Shown: in pieces, positions 5,189-12,023 of the stretch
Numbering within the stretch: position 1 is the first letter of the stretch
Layout of the letters: each line of letters starts with the position of its first letter
DNA from: an uncultured Pelagibacteraceae bacterium
Lineage (GTDB): Bacteria > Pseudomonadota > Alphaproteobacteria > Pelagibacterales > Pelagibacteraceae
Assembly: GCA_902604795.1 (NCBI GenBank)
Contig: CACKZV010000005.1
Location: forward strand, 16,876-80,875
Direction: 5' to 3'
Length of the DNA: 64,000 bases
Made by a program: the position numbers and the translations under genes
Notes under the pieces: model-generated
What the model saw: only the letters and a program-made list of their open reading frames with translations
Databases searched by the model: none
Told to the model about the DNA's origin: nothing

Positions 5189-5595
5189 TGGAAAACCAGT
5201 ATTTAAAAAAGATAATTGCACAAACTCCTGAAGATCTTCATATCATTTCAGCTTGCTGCTCTGAGGGTAAAGTTAATATTGACGATGTTAAATATTTAGC
5301 TTCTAACAAGATTTTTCTTATTTCAATAGCAAGATTTAGTAAAGAAGAGGAAAATAAAAATAAATTAATAAACAGTATTATCAAATTTGAATTTATTAAT
5401 TCGTCAAAATCTAAGAATATAGACCAAAATGACACTAATCTAACATTAGAATTATTAACAATTGATATTTTTAAGAAAGGGGAGAATTTTGAAATAACTA
5501 TGTTATTTTCGAAAAATAGAATTATAACTCTTGCCGCTGAAGTAATTGAAGTGACACTAGAGGATCAAAAAATAGTAAATGATAAAAATAATTAA
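5188..5595 (+). CDS. DUF2948 family protein
   Basis: 135 residues from the ATG at 5188. The track start at 5185 is a TTG inside murA; the ATG shares its A with the murA stop (TGATG), so I prefer it. The N-terminus (TPEDLHIISACCSEGKVNIDDVKYL) and position between murA and hisD match DUF2948, an alphaproteobacterial family of unknown function. Acidic and soluble. The 3' end overlaps hisD by 17 nt, implying coupled translation. Confidence 0.8.
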   Translation: MENQYLKKIIAQTPEDLHIISACCSEGKVNIDDVKYLASNKIFLISIARFSKEEENKNKLINSIIKFEFINSSKSKNIDQNDTNLTLELLTIDIFKKGENFEITMLFSKNRIITLAAEVIEVTLEDQKIVNDKNN

Positions 5596-6844
5596 TTGTA
5601 ATAAAAAAAATTACTTAAATAATTTAACACAATTTTTAGATCTTAGAAGATCTGGAAAAATAAATGAAAATAAAAAAATATCTAAAATTTTAAAAGATAT
5701 TAAGAACAATAAAAATAAAAGTCTTTTAAAATATGAGAAAAAATTTAGTAAAAATAGTCAAATTAAGCCAAGTATTAAGCAAATTAATAAAGCAATTAAA
5801 TCTTTAGACCCTAAGATTAAAAGAGCAATAGATTTTGCTTACAAACGGATACTTAAATTTCATTCTTTACAAAAAACTACAGATATCTTTTATAAAGATA
5901 ATCTAAACAATAAAATTGAGTATAAACATTTACCAATTCAATCGGTAGGTATTTATGTCCCAGCAAACCTACCATCAACACTATTGATGAATGCTATACC
6001 AGCAAAAATTGCAGGCGTTAAAAGAATTGTACTAGCAAATCCAAAAAATAATGGAAAATTAAATCCTGCAGTTTTATATGCAGCAAAAAAATTGGGAATT
6101 AATGAAATTTATTCAATGGGAGGCGCACAAGCTATAGGTAGTTTGGCTTATATTCAAAAAGTAAATAAAATTGTTGGACCGGGCAATATCTTTGTTGCTG
6201 GAGCTAAAAGACAGGTTTTTGGAGATGTAGGTATTGAAGGAATGATTGCCGGCCCATCTGAAATAACAATATTAGCAGATAGCAAAACTAATTTAGATGA
6301 AGTTACTACATCTATGATTGGGCAAGCCGAACATGACTCAAATTCTCAATGTATATTGATTACTAAAAATTCTAATTTGATTAACAAATTTAAGAAAGAT
6401 TTAGAATTAAAATTAAAAGATTTACCAAGAAAAAATATTGCATCTAAAAGCATTAAAAATAATGGACTAATTTTAAAAGTATATAATGATAGACAAATTA
6501 TTGATGCAATTAATGAGATAGCTCCTGAACACTTAGAAATAAATGTTAGCAATTATAAAAAGTATAAGAATAAAATTTTTAATGCGGGAAGTATTTGTAT
6601 AGGAAAATATTCTCCTATGGCATTAAGCGACTATGCTGTTGGGACAAATCATGTATTACCAACTAATTCGTCAGCTAAATTTTCGTCAGGCTTAAGTTTA
6701 AGTGAATTTTATAAAAAAATTAGCCTTATAACTCTTTCAAAAAAAGGTGTTGAGAAAATAGGAGAATACGCTACACATCTCGCTGAGTATGAAGAATTAA
6801 AAGGTCATGCTTTGAGTATAAAATCTAGAATAAATAAGGAGTAA
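5579..6844 (+). CDS. hisD: Histidinol dehydrogenase
   Basis: 421 residues. HisD motifs: VGIYVPANLPSTLLMNAIPAKIAG, MGGAQAIGSLAYI, VGPGNIFVAGAKRQVFGDVGIEGMIAGPSE, GQAEHDSNSQC, EHLEI and AVGTNHVLPT. It catalyses the last two steps of histidine synthesis, oxidising histidinol to histidine with NAD. It overlaps DUF2948 and is followed after 6 nt by infA. The N-terminal 60 residues are unusually Lys/Asn-rich, as expected at this base composition. Confidence 0.97.
   Translation: MIKIINCNKKNYLNNLTQFLDLRRSGKINENKKISKILKDIKNNKNKSLLKYEKKFSKNSQIKPSIKQINKAIKSLDPKIKRAIDFAYKRILKFHSLQKTTDIFYKDNLNNKIEYKHLPIQSVGIYVPANLPSTLLMNAIPAKIAGVKRIVLANPKNNGKLNPAVLYAAKKLGINEIYSMGGAQAIGSLAYIQKVNKIVGPGNIFVAGAKRQVFGDVGIEGMIAGPSEITILADSKTNLDEVTTSMIGQAEHDSNSQCILITKNSNLINKFKKDLELKLKDLPRKNIASKSIKNNGLILKVYNDRQIIDAINEIAPEHLEINVSNYKKYKNKIFNAGSICIGKYSPMALSDYAVGTNHVLPTNSSAKFSSGLSLSEFYKKISLITLSKKGVEKIGEYATHLAEYEELKGHALSIKSRINKE
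6836..6841 (+). promoter_or_regulatory. Shine-Dalgarno site of infA
   Basis: AAGGAG ends 9 nt before the TTG at 6851. It overlaps the end of hisD and supports TTG as the infA start, since there is no ATG in frame nearby. Confidence 0.7.
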
Positions 6845-6850
6845 CAAAAT

Positions 6851-7066
6851 TTGTCAAAACAAGATTTATTGGAATTTAAGGGTAAAGTCATCGATTTATT
6901 ACCTAACGCCATGTTCCGAGTAAAGCTTGAAAATAATCATATTGTTACAGCTCACACAGCTGGAAAGCTGAGGAAGAATAGGATTAGAGTTCTTCAGGGT
7001 GATAATGTAACAGTTGAAGTAACACCTTATGATTTGACAAAAGGAAGAATTATTTTTAGATTTTAA
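6851..7066 (+). CDS. infA: Translation initiation factor IF-1 (TTG start)
   Basis: 71 residues. [65 protein letters not shown] is a complete OB-fold IF-1. It binds the 30S A site and modulates initiation with IF-2 and IF-3. The start codon is TTG, backed by an AAGGAG 9 nt upstream. tRNA-Phe begins 5 nt after the stop, so mRNA and tRNA probably share a transcript. Confidence 0.96.
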
Positions 7067-7071
7067 ATAAT

Positions 7072-7147
7072 GGCTTCGTAGCTCAGTTGGTAGAGCAGAG
7101 CCCTGAAAAGGCTTGTGTCGCTGGTTCGAGTCCCGCCGAAGCCACCA
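7072..7147 (+). tRNA. tRNA-Phe (anticodon GAA)
   Basis: Acceptor GGCTTCG pairs with CGAAGCC; D arm GCTC/GAGC; anticodon stem GAGCC/GGCTT with loop CTGAAAA (anticodon GAA); encoded CCA. The T stem (GCTGG/CCCGC) contains one apparent T-C mismatch, which is unusual. It lies 5 nt after infA. Confidence 0.95.
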
Positions 7148-7264: not shown

Positions 7265-7477
7265 ATGAGTACATTAAAAGGAAAAGTAAAGTGGTTCAAC
7301 GGTAAGAAGGGCTACGGTTTTATAGAAAGAGAAGACGGAGAAAAAGATTGTTTCGTTCATGCAAGCGCAGTTCGTGAAGCAGGACTTCGTTTTTTGAATG
7401 AGAACGACGCTGTAGAATTTGAAATTCAGGACGGAGATAAAGGTCCAAGCGCAGTGAATTTAAAGAAAACTTCTTAA
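7265..7477 (+). CDS. Cold-shock protein, CspA family
   Basis: 70 residues: [20 protein letters not shown] contains RNP1 (KGYGFI), and CFVHASAV is RNP2, giving a single cold-shock OB fold that binds single-stranded RNA/DNA as an RNA chaperone. It has its own predicted promoter and leader between two tRNA genes. Codon choice is less AT-biased than its neighbours, consistent with high expression. Which csp paralogue it is cannot be told. Confidence 0.95.
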
Positions 7478-7497
7478 AATTTATTTCATTTAAAATT

Positions 7498-7543
7498 TTG
7501 TATAGGAATAAAAGTAGGAAACCCTATGAATATTCCTATACAA
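7498..7543 (+). repeat. Perfect 13-bp inverted repeat downstream of csp
   Basis: TTGTATAGGAATA at 7498-7510 is the exact reverse complement of TATTCCTATACAA at 7531-7543. The 20-nt loop holds a second nested pairing (GTAGG/CCTAT). It begins 20 nt after the csp stop. No T tract follows, so it is not a standard intrinsic terminator; a processing or stabilising 3' stem or a small RNA are alternatives. The rest of 7478-7707 is AT-rich with no gene seen. Confidence 0.7.
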
Positions 7544-7707
7544 TACATACTTGCATTTTAATTTTAAAATGCTATTTAACTCTCATGTTTAAAAATAGTT
7601 ACATCTTTGTATCTTACAAAAGACATCATTTTCATGCTGGCTTGCAGCTAGCTATCTAACTATTTATAAATTTAAATTTAACTCTAATTAGTATAAAACA
7701 ACAATAA

Positions 7708-7782
7708 GCCCTGGTGGTGAAATGGTTATCACGTCAGTTTGTGGAACTGAAATTTTTGGTTCGATCCCAAGCCAGGGTACCA
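7708..7782 (+). tRNA. tRNA-His (anticodon GTG), alphaproteobacterial type without G-1
   Basis: Acceptor GCCCTGG pairs with CCAGGGT (G1-U72 wobble), discriminator A73, encoded CCA. D arm GTGA/TCAC; anticodon stem TCAGT/ACTGA with loop TTGTGGA (GTG). The base before G1 is A and no extra G-1 opposes the discriminator. U72/A73 without G-1 is the derived alphaproteobacterial tRNA-His type. A TATAAA at 7692-7697 could be its -10 box, but no convincing -35 is seen. hisS starts 4 nt after the CCA. Confidence 0.95.
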
Positions 7783-7786
7783 AAAA

Positions 7787-9181
7787 ATGAAGAAAGAAAA
7801 TAAATTAATACCCGGGTTACCCTCAGGGTTTGAAGATCGTTGGGACAAGAAACTTCTTCTCAAAAAAAAGCTGTTATCAGCAATTGAGAATGTTTTTATT
7901 AAGTTTGGTGCTGAGCCCCTAGAAACCCCATCGTTTGAGATCAGTGAAAATATTGGATCATTTTTGGCAGAGGATGAAACCAACCCTATGTCTGATGTAT
8001 TTTCATTTAAAGATGGAGATAAAAACATTACTCTTCGATACGATCTATCAAGTCCCCTAGCAAGATTTGTTGCTCAAAATAATCAAGAGTTACCCTCAGT
8101 TTATAAGAGATACGCTATTCAAAATGTTTTCCGTAATGAAAAGGCTGGAAATGGAAGATATAGAGAATTTTTGCAAGCAGATTTTGATATTGTTGGAAAT
8201 GTTAATTCCTCACAGGCCAATGCAGAGCTTTGTAACTTAATTTCATCAGCATTAGTAGAATGTGGACTAAAGAAAGATCAATTTACAATCAATGTAAGTA
8301 ATAGAAAAATAGTTCAAGGATTATTAGATAATTTGAAAATATCTGAAGAAAAGCAGCTAAAAGTTATTAGAGCAATTGACAAACTTGATAAGCCTGGTTT
8401 TGGATTAAAAGGTGTAGAAGATCTCTTAAGAAAAGAAAGAAAAGACACTAGTGGAGCCATAACAAAAGGTGCAGATTTAAATGATGAGCAGGTTGATCAA
8501 ATATTAAAATATTTAAAAACAAAGGATTTAAAAGAATTAAAACAAAGCTTAAAAAATCCATTGTCACAAGAAGGAATAAAAGAGTTGGAGGAATTTTTTG
8601 TGGTTCTTGGGTATGGATCAAGTCTAGATCAAGTAAAAACCAATTTCACAATTGTGAGAGGTTTAGCTTATTATTCTGATTTTATTGTAGAAACAAATTT
8701 AAATTTTAAAGTTACAAATAACAAAGGTAAAGAAGTAGATATAGGTAGTATTTGCTCAGGAGGAGCTTACGCAAAACTTATATCAAGATTTAAAGGTGTA
8801 GATATTCCAGGGACAGGAATAAGTTTTGGCGTAGACAGACTTTTATTTGCATTAATGCAATTAGATCAAATTGAATTAGATGAGCAAAAACCAGTTTTGG
8901 TATGTGTAATGGACCAAAAATATTTAAAAAATTACTACGAAATTTTAGATCTCTTAAGACAAAACAATATTAACGCTGAAATATTTTTAGATTCTAAAAA
9001 AAATCTCGGTAAACAGCTTACTTTTGCAAACAAACGCCAATTGCCAGTTGCCATTATCTGTGGAGAAAATGAGTTTAAAGATAATACAGTGACAATCAAA
9101 AATTTAAAAGGTGTTAAGGGAGAGAATAATAAAACTTTTTCAAAGAAAGATTTAATTAATGAAGTCAAAAAACTTGTCTGA
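7787..9181 (+). CDS. hisS: Histidyl-tRNA synthetase (divergent alphaproteobacterial type)
   Basis: 464 residues, class II synthetase. Motif 2 region reads LRYDLSSPLARFVAQN and VFRNEKAGNGRYREFLQADFDIVG, which match the alphaproteobacterial HisRS, unlike the usual LRPEGT form. Motif 3 is GTGISFGVDRLLFAL; residues about 370-464 form the anticodon-binding domain. It charges tRNA-His with histidine. It begins 4 nt after tRNA-His, so processing of the tRNA would leave an almost leaderless mRNA. It overlaps hisZ by 23 nt. Confidence 0.97.
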   Translation: MKKENKLIPGLPSGFEDRWDKKLLLKKKLLSAIENVFIKFGAEPLETPSFEISENIGSFLAEDETNPMSDVFSFKDGDKNITLRYDLSSPLARFVAQNNQELPSVYKRYAIQNVFRNEKAGNGRYREFLQADFDIVGNVNSSQANAELCNLISSALVECGLKKDQFTINVSNRKIVQGLLDNLKISEEKQLKVIRAIDKLDKPGFGLKGVEDLLRKERKDTSGAITKGADLNDEQVDQILKYLKTKDLKELKQSLKNPLSQEGIKELEEFFVVLGYGSSLDQVKTNFTIVRGLAYYSDFIVETNLNFKVTNNKGKEVDIGSICSGGAYAKLISRFKGVDIPGTGISFGVDRLLFALMQLDQIELDEQKPVLVCVMDQKYLKNYYEILDLLRQNNINAEIFLDSKKNLGKQLTFANKRQLPVAIICGENEFKDNTVTIKNLKGVKGENNKTFSKKDLINEVKKLV

Positions 9182-10208
9182 AAATATTCTTAAATCTTTA
9201 AAATCGAGTGGATTTGATTACATCGATTTAGATACAGTCATACCTACTAATTTAATTCTTGAGAGATCTGGCGAGTCATTTAGAAGTTTAATTTTTTCAT
9301 TTGCTGATCAGAATGGAAAAGAAATTTGTTTAAGACCAGATTTAACTGTTGCGTCCTGTATTAAATATCTTAATCAAAAAAATAAGAAATCTTCAAAAGT
9401 TTTTTACAGCGGACAAGCATTCAGAAAAGTTCAAAAAAAAACTGATAAGATTATAAGAGACCAAATAGGTTTTGAGATTTTAGGATCAAAAGATGAGAAA
9501 AGAGATGATAAAAAAATCATAGATACGAGTATTAAAGTTATAAATAAATTTAGATACAAAACTGGAACTATTACAATTGGGAATGTTGAAATTTTTCACT
9601 TATTAATAAATAAATTAGATATTCCAAAAAGATGGAGGCTTAGATTACAAAGACATTTTTGGAGAGAAAATTATTTTAATGAATTGTTGAAGCGTTTAGA
9701 GACTAACTCAGATGTAGATGAAACAGTAGTTGAATTGGATAAAAAAAGATATTTAAAAATGTTTAAACAAAATCAAGATAGAAATATTGCAGGTAGAACT
9801 TTAAACGAAATTTTATTAAGATTTGATAATAAAATTAAAGATCCTAGAAGGCAAATAAAAGGACAAAATGTCGTAAAAATTATTAGAGATTATTTAAAAA
9901 TTAGTTGTCCTATGAGCAAAGCAGCAGCTACTCTAAATACTTTTTTTAAACAAAATAAAATCAATCTTAGTGTTGGAAAGAATTATTTTCCAATAACAAA
10001 AAATAAAGTTTCAAAGTTAAATGTAAATTTTTCATCTTCATTCGGCAGACATTTGGAATATTACACAGGTATGGTTTTTAAAATTCAAACAAAAGTAAAA
10101 TCAAGAAAAATTGAAGTAAATGGAGGCCGTTATGACAATCTTATTAGTGATTTAGGATCTAAAATAAAGGTGCCAGCTGTAGGAGGTGCAATAAATTTAA
10201 ATGATTAA
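9159..10208 (+). CDS. hisZ: ATP phosphoribosyltransferase regulatory subunit
   Basis: 349 residues. A HisRS-like paralogue with LRPDLTVASCIKYLNQ, FYSGQAFRKVQ, DQIGFEILG and a C-terminal GRHLEYYTGMVF...NGGRYDNLISDLG. It lacks the anticodon-binding domain and serves as the regulatory partner of the short HisG, giving histidine feedback control. Located between hisS and hisG and overlapping both (23 and 8 nt), consistent with a stoichiometric HisG-HisZ complex. Confidence 0.94.
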   Translation: MKSKNLSENILKSLKSSGFDYIDLDTVIPTNLILERSGESFRSLIFSFADQNGKEICLRPDLTVASCIKYLNQKNKKSSKVFYSGQAFRKVQKKTDKIIRDQIGFEILGSKDEKRDDKKIIDTSIKVINKFRYKTGTITIGNVEIFHLLINKLDIPKRWRLRLQRHFWRENYFNELLKRLETNSDVDETVVELDKKRYLKMFKQNQDRNIAGRTLNEILLRFDNKIKDPRRQIKGQNVVKIIRDYLKISCPMSKAAATLNTFFKQNKINLSVGKNYFPITKNKVSKLNVNFSSSFGRHLEYYTGMVFKIQTKVKSRKIEVNGGRYDNLISDLGSKIKVPAVGGAINLND

Positions 10209-10878
10209 AATTGGTATTCCCAGCAAAGGTAGACTTAGAAAAGATACTTTAAGTATTTTTAAAAATAAAAATCTTAAAATCTTATCAGAAAGAGGAGAAA
10301 GAGACCTTTTTGGATATATAAAAGGAAATAAAAAAATTAAAATAGTATATCTGCATGCAAGAGAAATTATAGAAAGATTAGGGGATGAATCTTTGGATAT
10401 AGGTTTTTCAGGCTATGATTTATTAAAAGAGTCTGAATTAAATGTTCAAAAAAAAATAATTATTAATAAAAAACTAGATTATGGAAATGCAACTTTAGTT
10501 GTAGCTGTTCCTGACGAATGGATAGATGTCCAAACACTTGCTGATTTAGAAGAAATATCTTTTGATTTTAAAGATAATAAGAAAAGTAGATTAAGAGTTG
10601 CAACAAAATATCCAAATTTGACCAAAGAATTTTTATTTTCAAAAGGAGTAACTCAATTTAAATTAGTGCCTTCTCTTGGAGCAACTGAGGTATATCCGTT
10701 TACTGGTTCATCTGAGATTTTAACCGATATAACCAGTACAGGAGAGACTTTAAAAGCTAACAATTTAAGAATTTTAAAGGATGGAAATATTCTTAAAAGT
10801 ACAGCAATCTTGATGTCGAATAAAAAATCAAGTAACCAAATTGGTTTAAAGAAAATTTTAAATTTACTTAGTTCTTAG
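10201..10878 (+). CDS. hisG: ATP phosphoribosyltransferase, short form
   Basis: 225 residues, the short HisG that lacks the C-terminal regulatory domain and needs HisZ. KIGIPSKGRLRKDTL at the N-terminus, LDIGFSGYDLL, and the PRPP-binding loop GATEVYPFTGSSEILTDITSTGETL are diagnostic. First enzyme of histidine synthesis. Overlaps hisZ by 8 nt; apparent end of the tRNA-His-hisS-hisZ-hisG unit. Confidence 0.96.
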   Translation: MIKIGIPSKGRLRKDTLSIFKNKNLKILSERGERDLFGYIKGNKKIKIVYLHAREIIERLGDESLDIGFSGYDLLKESELNVQKKIIINKKLDYGNATLVVAVPDEWIDVQTLADLEEISFDFKDNKKSRLRVATKYPNLTKEFLFSKGVTQFKLVPSLGATEVYPFTGSSEILTDITSTGETLKANNLRILKDGNILKSTAILMSNKKSSNQIGLKKILNLLSS

Positions 10879-10922: not shown

Positions 10923-12023
10923 ATGAATACTATAATTCTTGTTTTACTTTCACTCTCACTTATTAGTTCAGTATTAATTATATATTTGAATTTTAAATCA
11001 AAGAATGAATCTCATAATGAGAAGGAAAATCAGGAGATTCAAATGCTAAATCAAGAAATTATAAATTTAAAAGAGTCTTTAAATACAACAATAAATAGCA
11101 CTATGAACTCAATGGCTACTTCTTTTAATAATCTTTCATCAGGTGTAACAAAAGATATGACGAATGCTTTAACTCAAGTAGATCAAAAAGTAGCTTCCTT
11201 TAATGCCCAAGTTGAAAATTTGAATGAAAGTCAGAAGGGCATTAATCAAATATTGGCAGGTGTTAAAAAGTATGGAACCTTAGCTGAGTTTAGTTTGGGC
11301 TCCCTGATCAAGGACTTGTTGCCAGCATCTCAATATTCATCAAATGTAAAAATGAAAGAAGATACGGGTGAAAATGTTGAATTTGCAATTAAACTTCAAG
11401 ATGGGATTTTGGTTCCAGTTGATAGCCACTTTCCAGTTGAAAGATTTAAGGCCATCCAAGATGCTCATCAGGAAGATGACAAAAAAGCTATGGCTGATGC
11501 AAGAACTAAACTTGCTAGAGCATTTAAAGAAAAGGCTAAAAGCGTGAACGAAAAATATATCGTCCCACCAAAAACGACAGATTTTGCGATTGTTTATGCG
11601 CCAACTGAAAGTTTATTTTTAGAATTAGCTAATTATCAAGATCCATCTACAAAAGAATTATTAACTCAAGAATTAATGAAGAAATATAAAGTAACTATCA
11701 TGGGCCCCAATAATTTATCTGGTTATTTACAATCACTCCATATGGGATTTCAGAGCTTACGAATTAAAAAGCATGCATCTGAAATATATGATCATTTAAA
11801 AAAAATAAGCACCAGATTTAATATGCATTTTAACAACGTTTTAGTTTTAAGAAAAAAATTAGAAGAAGCAATGTCGGTAGTTGATAGTTTTGGTAAAGAT
11901 GCTAGAGCAATAAACAGAAGTATCGACTCAATAAAAAATCCTAATGATGACGATGATCCCGATCCAAGTTCTCCATCTCCAATTTCTGGTTATGGTCAGG
12001 ATGAAAAACGAAAAGTTTCTTAA
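10923..12023 (+). CDS. rmuC: RmuC-family DNA recombination protein
   Basis: 366 residues: N-terminal membrane anchor (residues 3-23), a coiled-coil (30-110), then the RmuC core with DGILVPVDSHFPVERF, a restriction-endonuclease-like fold, and IMGPNNLSGYLQSLHMGFQSLRI. The tail is Asp/Pro-rich. RmuC limits inversions at short inverted repeats, possibly as a nuclease. Preceded by a 44-nt gap from hisG and followed by two further nuclease genes. Confidence 0.93.
   Translation: MNTIILVLLSLSLISSVLIIYLNFKSKNESHNEKENQEIQMLNQEIINLKESLNTTINSTMNSMATSFNNLSSGVTKDMTNALTQVDQKVASFNAQVENLNESQKGINQILAGVKKYGTLAEFSLGSLIKDLLPASQYSSNVKMKEDTGENVEFAIKLQDGILVPVDSHFPVERFKAIQDAHQEDDKKAMADARTKLARAFKEKAKSVNEKYIVPPKTTDFAIVYAPTESLFLELANYQDPSTKELLTQELMKKYKVTIMGPNNLSGYLQSLHMGFQSLRIKKHASEIYDHLKKISTRFNMHFNNVLVLRKKLEEAMSVVDSFGKDARAINRSIDSIKNPNDDDDPDPSSPSPISGYGQDEKRKVS

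Follow-up and report, generated by a model that had tools for sequence, protein, structure and literature searches.

A Caulobacter-type tRNA-His and histidyl-tRNA synthetase gene pair, probably replaced as one cassette between Pelagibacter lineages

The window analysed here, a stretch of 64,000 nucleotides from an uncultured Pelagibacteraceae bacterium, carries a tRNA-His(GUG) gene immediately upstream of hisS, together with the neighbouring genes listed in Table 1. The tRNA scores 59.7 bits with the Rfam tRNA model (whole-genome scan), and its acceptor stem pairs 5' GCCCUGG with 3' CCAGGGU, i.e., it contains G1-U72; the discriminator is A73, and position -1 (7707) is A, so that G-1 is not encoded. 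These features of the tRNA (no G-1, G1-U72, and A73) and the 4-nt distance to hisS had been described in the initial annotation, and both the sequence and ARAGORN bear them out. The span proposed for the tRNA, 7708-7789, does contain the gene but overshoots its end at 7782, taking in the hisS start codon (7787-7789). This start is unambiguous because no other in-frame ATG, GTG, or TTG lies between the last upstream in-frame stop, located within the tRNA, and the ATG. The encoded protein matches the equivalog TIGR00442 with 334.9 bits (cut-off 286.75). According to the tRNA sets compiled from Rfam tRNA hits and ARAGORN, this is the sole tRNA-His detected in the window genome (G000; assembly approx. 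80% complete), and hisS is likewise the only full-length copy in the assembly. The closed genomes of two relatives, G017 and G035, contain one tRNA-His each, directly before hisS. That the 75-nt tRNA body arose from a different tRNA in this genome was considered and rejected; the best-scoring non-His match, tRNA-Thr(GGT), has 52 identities over approx. 75 positions, and no clear donor emerges.

Table 1. Features of the tRNA-His-hisS locus and its surroundings (window positions)
Feature	Position	Strand	Basis
hisD, upstream flank, recipient lineage	5579..6844	+	TIGR00069, identity pattern
infA	6851-7066		
tRNA-Phe(GAA), upstream neighbour	7072..7147	+	ARAGORN
csp	7265-7477		
5' edge of exchanged block	7692..7708	+	alignment of 14 genomes
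tRNA-His(GUG), 75 nt including encoded CCA	7708..7782	+	ARAGORN (GTG anticodon), sequence reading
Spacer AAAA, 4 nt, tRNA CCA to hisS ATG	7783..7786	+	sequence; length conserved (3-6 nt) in family
hisS, histidyl-tRNA synthetase (HisRS), 464 aa	7787..9181	+	TIGR00442 above cut-off
HisRS motif 2 loop FRNEKAGNGRYREF	8129..8170	+	alignment with E. coli HisRS
3' edge of exchanged block, hisS/hisZ overlap	9159..9185	+	DNA scan, alignment
hisZ, ATP phosphoribosyltransferase regulatory subunit, flank outside exchanged block here	9159..10208	+	profile match, identity pattern
hisG, flank	10201..10878	+	TIGR00070

The motif 2 loop of the window HisRS, FRNEKAGNGRYREF, aligns with FRHERPQKGRYRQF of the E. 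coli enzyme, and Gly121 (codon 8147-8149) occupies the position at which E. coli carries Gln. The corresponding residue is Asp in the HisRS of G043. The loop is a catalytic signature, and its form differs strongly within the family: it reads WRNEKPGPGRFREF in most genera, FRQEKADSARFRSF in G043, and YRREKPGNGRFKSF in G105; in G447, it carries an insert of two residues. In a quick tree that includes E. coli HisRS, the window protein falls within the Caulobacter-type alphaproteobacterial branch, and the E. coli protein is very distant. The proposal that a divergent synthetase, with a motif 2 matching the tRNA type, is encoded here thus holds, given both the Gly for Gln and the grouping away from the standard bacterial form.

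On the side of the tRNA, A73 is present in every tRNA-His of the family that was read, with the sole exception of G447 (G73), and U72 together with A73 is constant across nearly all tRNA-His types of the family. The base at -1 is unconstrained, being T in 41, A in 15, G in 1, and C in 1 of the species sample, and A in 37, G in 36, and T in 7 members of the near group. With G at this position in 36 of 80 near relatives, the mature tRNA-His might be thought to have G-1 after all, either because RNase P cuts one base upstream or because G is added. However, the window has A at this position, which shows no constraint over the species, position 73 is A instead of C, and the window HisRS is without the Gln of the E. 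coli motif 2; moreover, Thg1, the G-1-adding enzyme, was found in none of 61 genomes, which argues against post-transcriptional addition. A mature tRNA carrying G-1 is thus very improbable.

It has been reported that some alphaproteobacteria have no G-1 and that their His identity set comprises A73, U72, and the anticodon (PMC9976931, a review of the Caulobacter set, in which Ardell and Andersson 2006 and Yuan et al. 2011 are cited as sources for the G-1-less pair). Seven of eight SAR11 strains share the Caulobacter-type trait, including the motif 2 Gly (PMC3937112); in the same paper, Amrine et al. (2014) treat the SAR11 tRNA-His/HisRS trait as a phylogenetic marker, i.e., a rare synapomorphy, and cite the idea of Wang et al. 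that tRNA-His and HisRS were anciently co-transferred into a SAR11 ancestor. As far as its sequence can show, the window pair is confirmed as a Caulobacter-type (RRCH) tRNA-His/HisRS, in line with the initial annotation; this type of identity set was already known, having been assigned to most SAR11 strains. The window and Caulobacter pairs have in common the lack of an encoded G-1, U72, A73, the motif 2 Gly for Gln, and the HisRS branch. They differ in that the two genes are non-adjacent in the relatives examined outside the family, and the papers drawn on here report neither exchange of the pair within a genus nor a remodelled tRNA body.

How widely the adjacency is kept, a question raised by the initial annotation, was surveyed in a family sample of 14 genera, each species being represented by a single genome. 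The distance from the tRNA-His CCA to the hisS ATG is 3-6 nt in 60 of the 62 species loci (4 nt in 35 and 5 nt in 23), and exactly 4 nt in all 80 near-group genomes, both named single-cell and other. This spacing, which is not due to chance, is kept despite a drop of HisRS identity to approx. 42% across the family; the exceptions are G105 and G109, in which the tRNA lies 28-29 nt from hisS. In f154, the sister family within the order, none of 10 loci has the two genes adjacent; in eight of them, tRNA-His lies 1.4-2.2 kb upstream of hisS, often directly behind tRNA-Phe. No tRNA-His was found in the hisS flanks examined at 32 other alphaproteobacterial loci. Since the adjacency is absent from the sister family and other alphaproteobacteria, tight coupling appears to be a trait of the window's family, as sampled.

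The 4-nt gap has no space for a promoter or ribosome site outside the tRNA, and hisS is therefore most simply read from a transcript starting at or before the tRNA. A consensus scan of positions 7400-7950 detected neither a sigma-70 promoter nor a terminator; a possible -10 element, TATAAA, was read by eye in the leader AATTAGTATAAAACAA. Co-transcription of tRNA-His and hisS, with near-leaderless translation of the latter, thus seems likely: the transcript would be cut at the tRNA ends, yielding free tRNA and a hisS mRNA virtually devoid of a leader. A Shine-Dalgarno sequence within the acceptor stem (AGGG, 7774-7777), although well spaced in the window, was rejected as a conserved device, as the corresponding stretch lacks a purine run in other genera.

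The phylogenetic position of the pair is at odds with that of its surroundings. In the rpoB tree, the window genome and G127 group with G043, G069, G123, G101, and G109 (support 100/99), and the same backbone placement of the window genome is obtained from seven flanking genes, from the upstream genes alone, and from SerRS. HisRS trees place the window genome and G127 with G088, G035, G017, G134, and others. AU tests reject the backbone clade for HisRS (p 4e-46) and the HisRS clade for the flanking genes (p 2e-5). Identity of the window genome to this donor clade (ranges leaving out G014) is 77-88% for hisS vs. 45-53% for x136 and 53-58% for hisD, and, downstream, 64-69% for hisZ, 61-78% for hisG, and 57-74% for murA. 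To its rpoB sisters (G043, G069, G123, and G101), hisS is 49-58% identical, compared with 66-70% for x136, 72-73% for hisD, and 86-87% for the downstream ORF x228. The named single-cell genomes exhibit the same contrast (hisS 86-89% vs. hisD approx. 55%). At the DNA level, identity switches at approx. 7700 and 9180, the second switch being a drop at the hisS/hisZ overlap, a stretch in which the lineages do not differ; in the alignment of 14 genomes, the leader up to approx. 7700 belongs to the recipient lineage and the sequence from the tRNA onward to the donor clade. In the lineage to which the window belongs (G000, G127, and closely related single-cell genomes), tRNA-His and hisS alone thus come from another Pelagibacter clade. 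The expectation that the linked pair could be transferred together therefore holds, this block being phylogenetically foreign to its own flanks.

Such incongruence could also be an artefact of a chimeric assembly, of paralogues that escaped notice, or of convergent evolution in an AT-rich, fast-evolving protein, and the window genome is indeed an incomplete assembly of 29 contigs. However, the same mosaic is found in G127, which is 97% complete, and recurs in numerous independent single-cell genomes from the species group to which the window belongs; the latter rule out a chimeric assembly. Each genome has only one full-length hisS, the block edges are sharp at the DNA level, and 77-88% identity over 464 aa is too high for convergence, which leaves an artefact scarcely credible. 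Furthermore, G451 and G457 also carry the window-type HisRS and tRNA, and the exchange therefore happened at least twice; their backbone is that of the G083/G425 lineage by upstream genes, they group with G425 by rpoB, and SerRS places G457 with both G083 and G425. Phage was considered as a carrier and rejected, as viral contigs contain no relative of the window HisRS and no match to the tRNA pattern. The tRNA-Phe body in G451 and G457 (L336, L338) is unlike that of other genomes (GGGTCTCTGGTGTAGCTGG...), and hence tRNA-Phe may be exchanged too. Separately, G105 (L213), G109 (L214), G449 (L329), and G431 (L330) combine a divergent hisS with strongly divergent hisZ and hisG, which looks like the exchange of a longer his block. 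Another local replacement is seen behind hisG, in the rmuC-like gene (window 10923-12023; L240, L244, L251-L255): its identity is 98-99% to some of the near relatives but only 23% to others.

Within the genus, hisS is unusually exchanged. HisRS identity correlates with that of rpoB with a rho of 0.42 and reaches a minimum of 40%, vs. a rho of 0.81 and a minimum of 65.8% for the SerRS control. Closely related genomes can differ strongly in HisRS: identity between G109 and G069 is 98% for SerRS, 97% for RpoB, and 97% for HisD but 48% for HisRS, that between G449 and G088 is 96% for SerRS and 97% for RpoB but 60% for HisRS, and that between G447 and G134 is 98% for SerRS but 51% for HisRS. The types of tRNA and HisRS are concordant in 43 of 45 genomes; in the two exceptions, G431 and G449, a window-like tRNA body accompanies another HisRS type. 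HisRS type changes approx. six times on the backbone tree, and the tRNA type moves with it in four of five independent pairs and the opposite way in none, although four informative pairs cannot reach p 0.05. Variants of the tRNA elbow change approx. seven times on the HisRS tree, moving independently of hisS. The pair is thus not strictly inseparable, as both these shifts and the mismatched G431 and G449 demonstrate.

Taken together, the anatomy of the locus, the family-wide spacing, the foreign origin of the block, the congruent change of tRNA and HisRS type, and the absence of Thg1 from the genomes searched make it likely that tRNA-His and hisS form a co-transcribed Caulobacter-type cassette that is replaced as one by recombination between Pelagibacter lineages. 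The cassette, with the tRNA as its 5' end and hisS four bases on, would hold both halves of the His identity set; its HisRS would recognise U72, A73, and the anticodon, and G-1 would be unnecessary. Because the two genes abut, homologous recombination would swap both in one go. The window lineage would have lost its ancestral pair and obtained that of another Pelagibacter clade, with the junctions at the 5' end of the tRNA and at the hisS/hisZ overlap.

That tRNA-His and hisS moved together does not mean that they had to. Co-transfer may not be functionally required, since U72 and A73 are common to nearly all types; the resident tRNA might be charged by a HisRS arriving from elsewhere, and the joint transfer may amount to hitch-hiking. 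Selection or chance would then act on just one of the two genes, either hisS or the tRNA, the neighbour being replaced only since it lies four bases away, and the short gap would reflect genome streamlining. SAR11 genomes are very compact, which suits this explanation, as do the identical U72, A73, and GUG of nearly all tRNA-His types, which may make them interchangeable, the elbow changes on the HisRS tree, the mismatched pairs in G431 and G449, and a block size that varies to include hisZ and hisG in four genomes. On the other hand, the gap is steady at 4-5 nt across the family whereas the distance from tRNA-Phe to tRNA-His varies widely, and tRNA and HisRS types agree in nearly all genomes, so that hitch-hiking has a little less than an even chance. 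It is rather unlikely, though conceivable, that the blocks are allelic, co-evolved charging modules whose diversity is maintained by selection, e.g., against toxins, phage factors, or inhibitors that target the tRNA or HisRS; genomes that are nearly clonal would then differ in module, and some modules would carry the A18/G55 elbow described below or, as in G447, G73, with a matching altered motif 2. An agent attacking tRNA-His or HisRS as the driver of exchange is a guess.

Replacement of the pair as one cassette bears on the old question of how a tRNA-synthetase recognition rule can change without a lethal intermediate. A compact block in which a single recombination event replaces both partners would be a ready test system, with many natural variants in a group that ranks among the most abundant bacteria on Earth; there, an essential step in reading the genetic code would be exchanged between species like a cassette. 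Replacement of an essential synthetase by a homologue through horizontal transfer is known in general for aminoacyl-tRNA synthetases; here, however, the cognate tRNA gene rides in the same 1.5-kb block. The trait and the group are identical to those of the SAR11 marker of Amrine et al. (PMC3937112), but a fixed synapomorphy there is repeatedly exchanged inside one genus here, and HisRS type therefore fails to track the SAR11 species tree. This is a warning for the use of His identity as a rare fixed marker in SAR11 placement. What is new here is thus the family-wide spacing, the exchange of the pair as a block, the unusual exchange of hisS, and the remodelling of the tRNA body.

With regard to the latter, the tRNA-His body is 77 nt in most of the family, 75 nt in the window type, and 74 nt in G063, G017, G003, G456, L295, and G431. 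The 74-nt form, with the D-loop AAUAGUA (AAUAGCA in G017 and L295) and the T-loop AGCGUAA, is missed by ARAGORN but was accepted by the Rfam model in G017. G18 and U55 are near-universal in tRNAs. Among 122 distinct parsed sequences, which are phylogenetically non-independent, the combination G18/U55 occurs in 101 and A18/G55 in 21, and no mixed G18/G55 or A18/U55 form was found; ten further tRNA rows, mostly Ser with another D-loop layout and not cleanly assignable, lie outside these counts. Four tRNA classes (His, Phe, Thr, and Val) include the A18/G55 form, and several origins are therefore likely. Its carriers include tRNA-Val GAC of the window genome (G000:C3:34269-34340; L409), tRNA-Phe in G017 and G035, tRNA-Thr in L333 and L336, and tRNA-His in L009, L012, L016, and L031. 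The G18-Psi55 contact is described as conserved in two reviews (PMC7912444, PMC7609411), and the A18/G55 swap goes unmentioned in the portions of these reviews drawn on here. A further deviation is seen in G447, in which no second tRNA-His appeared among the Rfam tRNA hits and ARAGORN predictions: its tRNA-His (L331, G447:C2:145500-157500) has G1-U72 but G73 and the T-loop AGAGUUA, and the hisS behind it (L331, 5100-6485) encodes the very divergent HisRS with the two-residue insert in motif 2.
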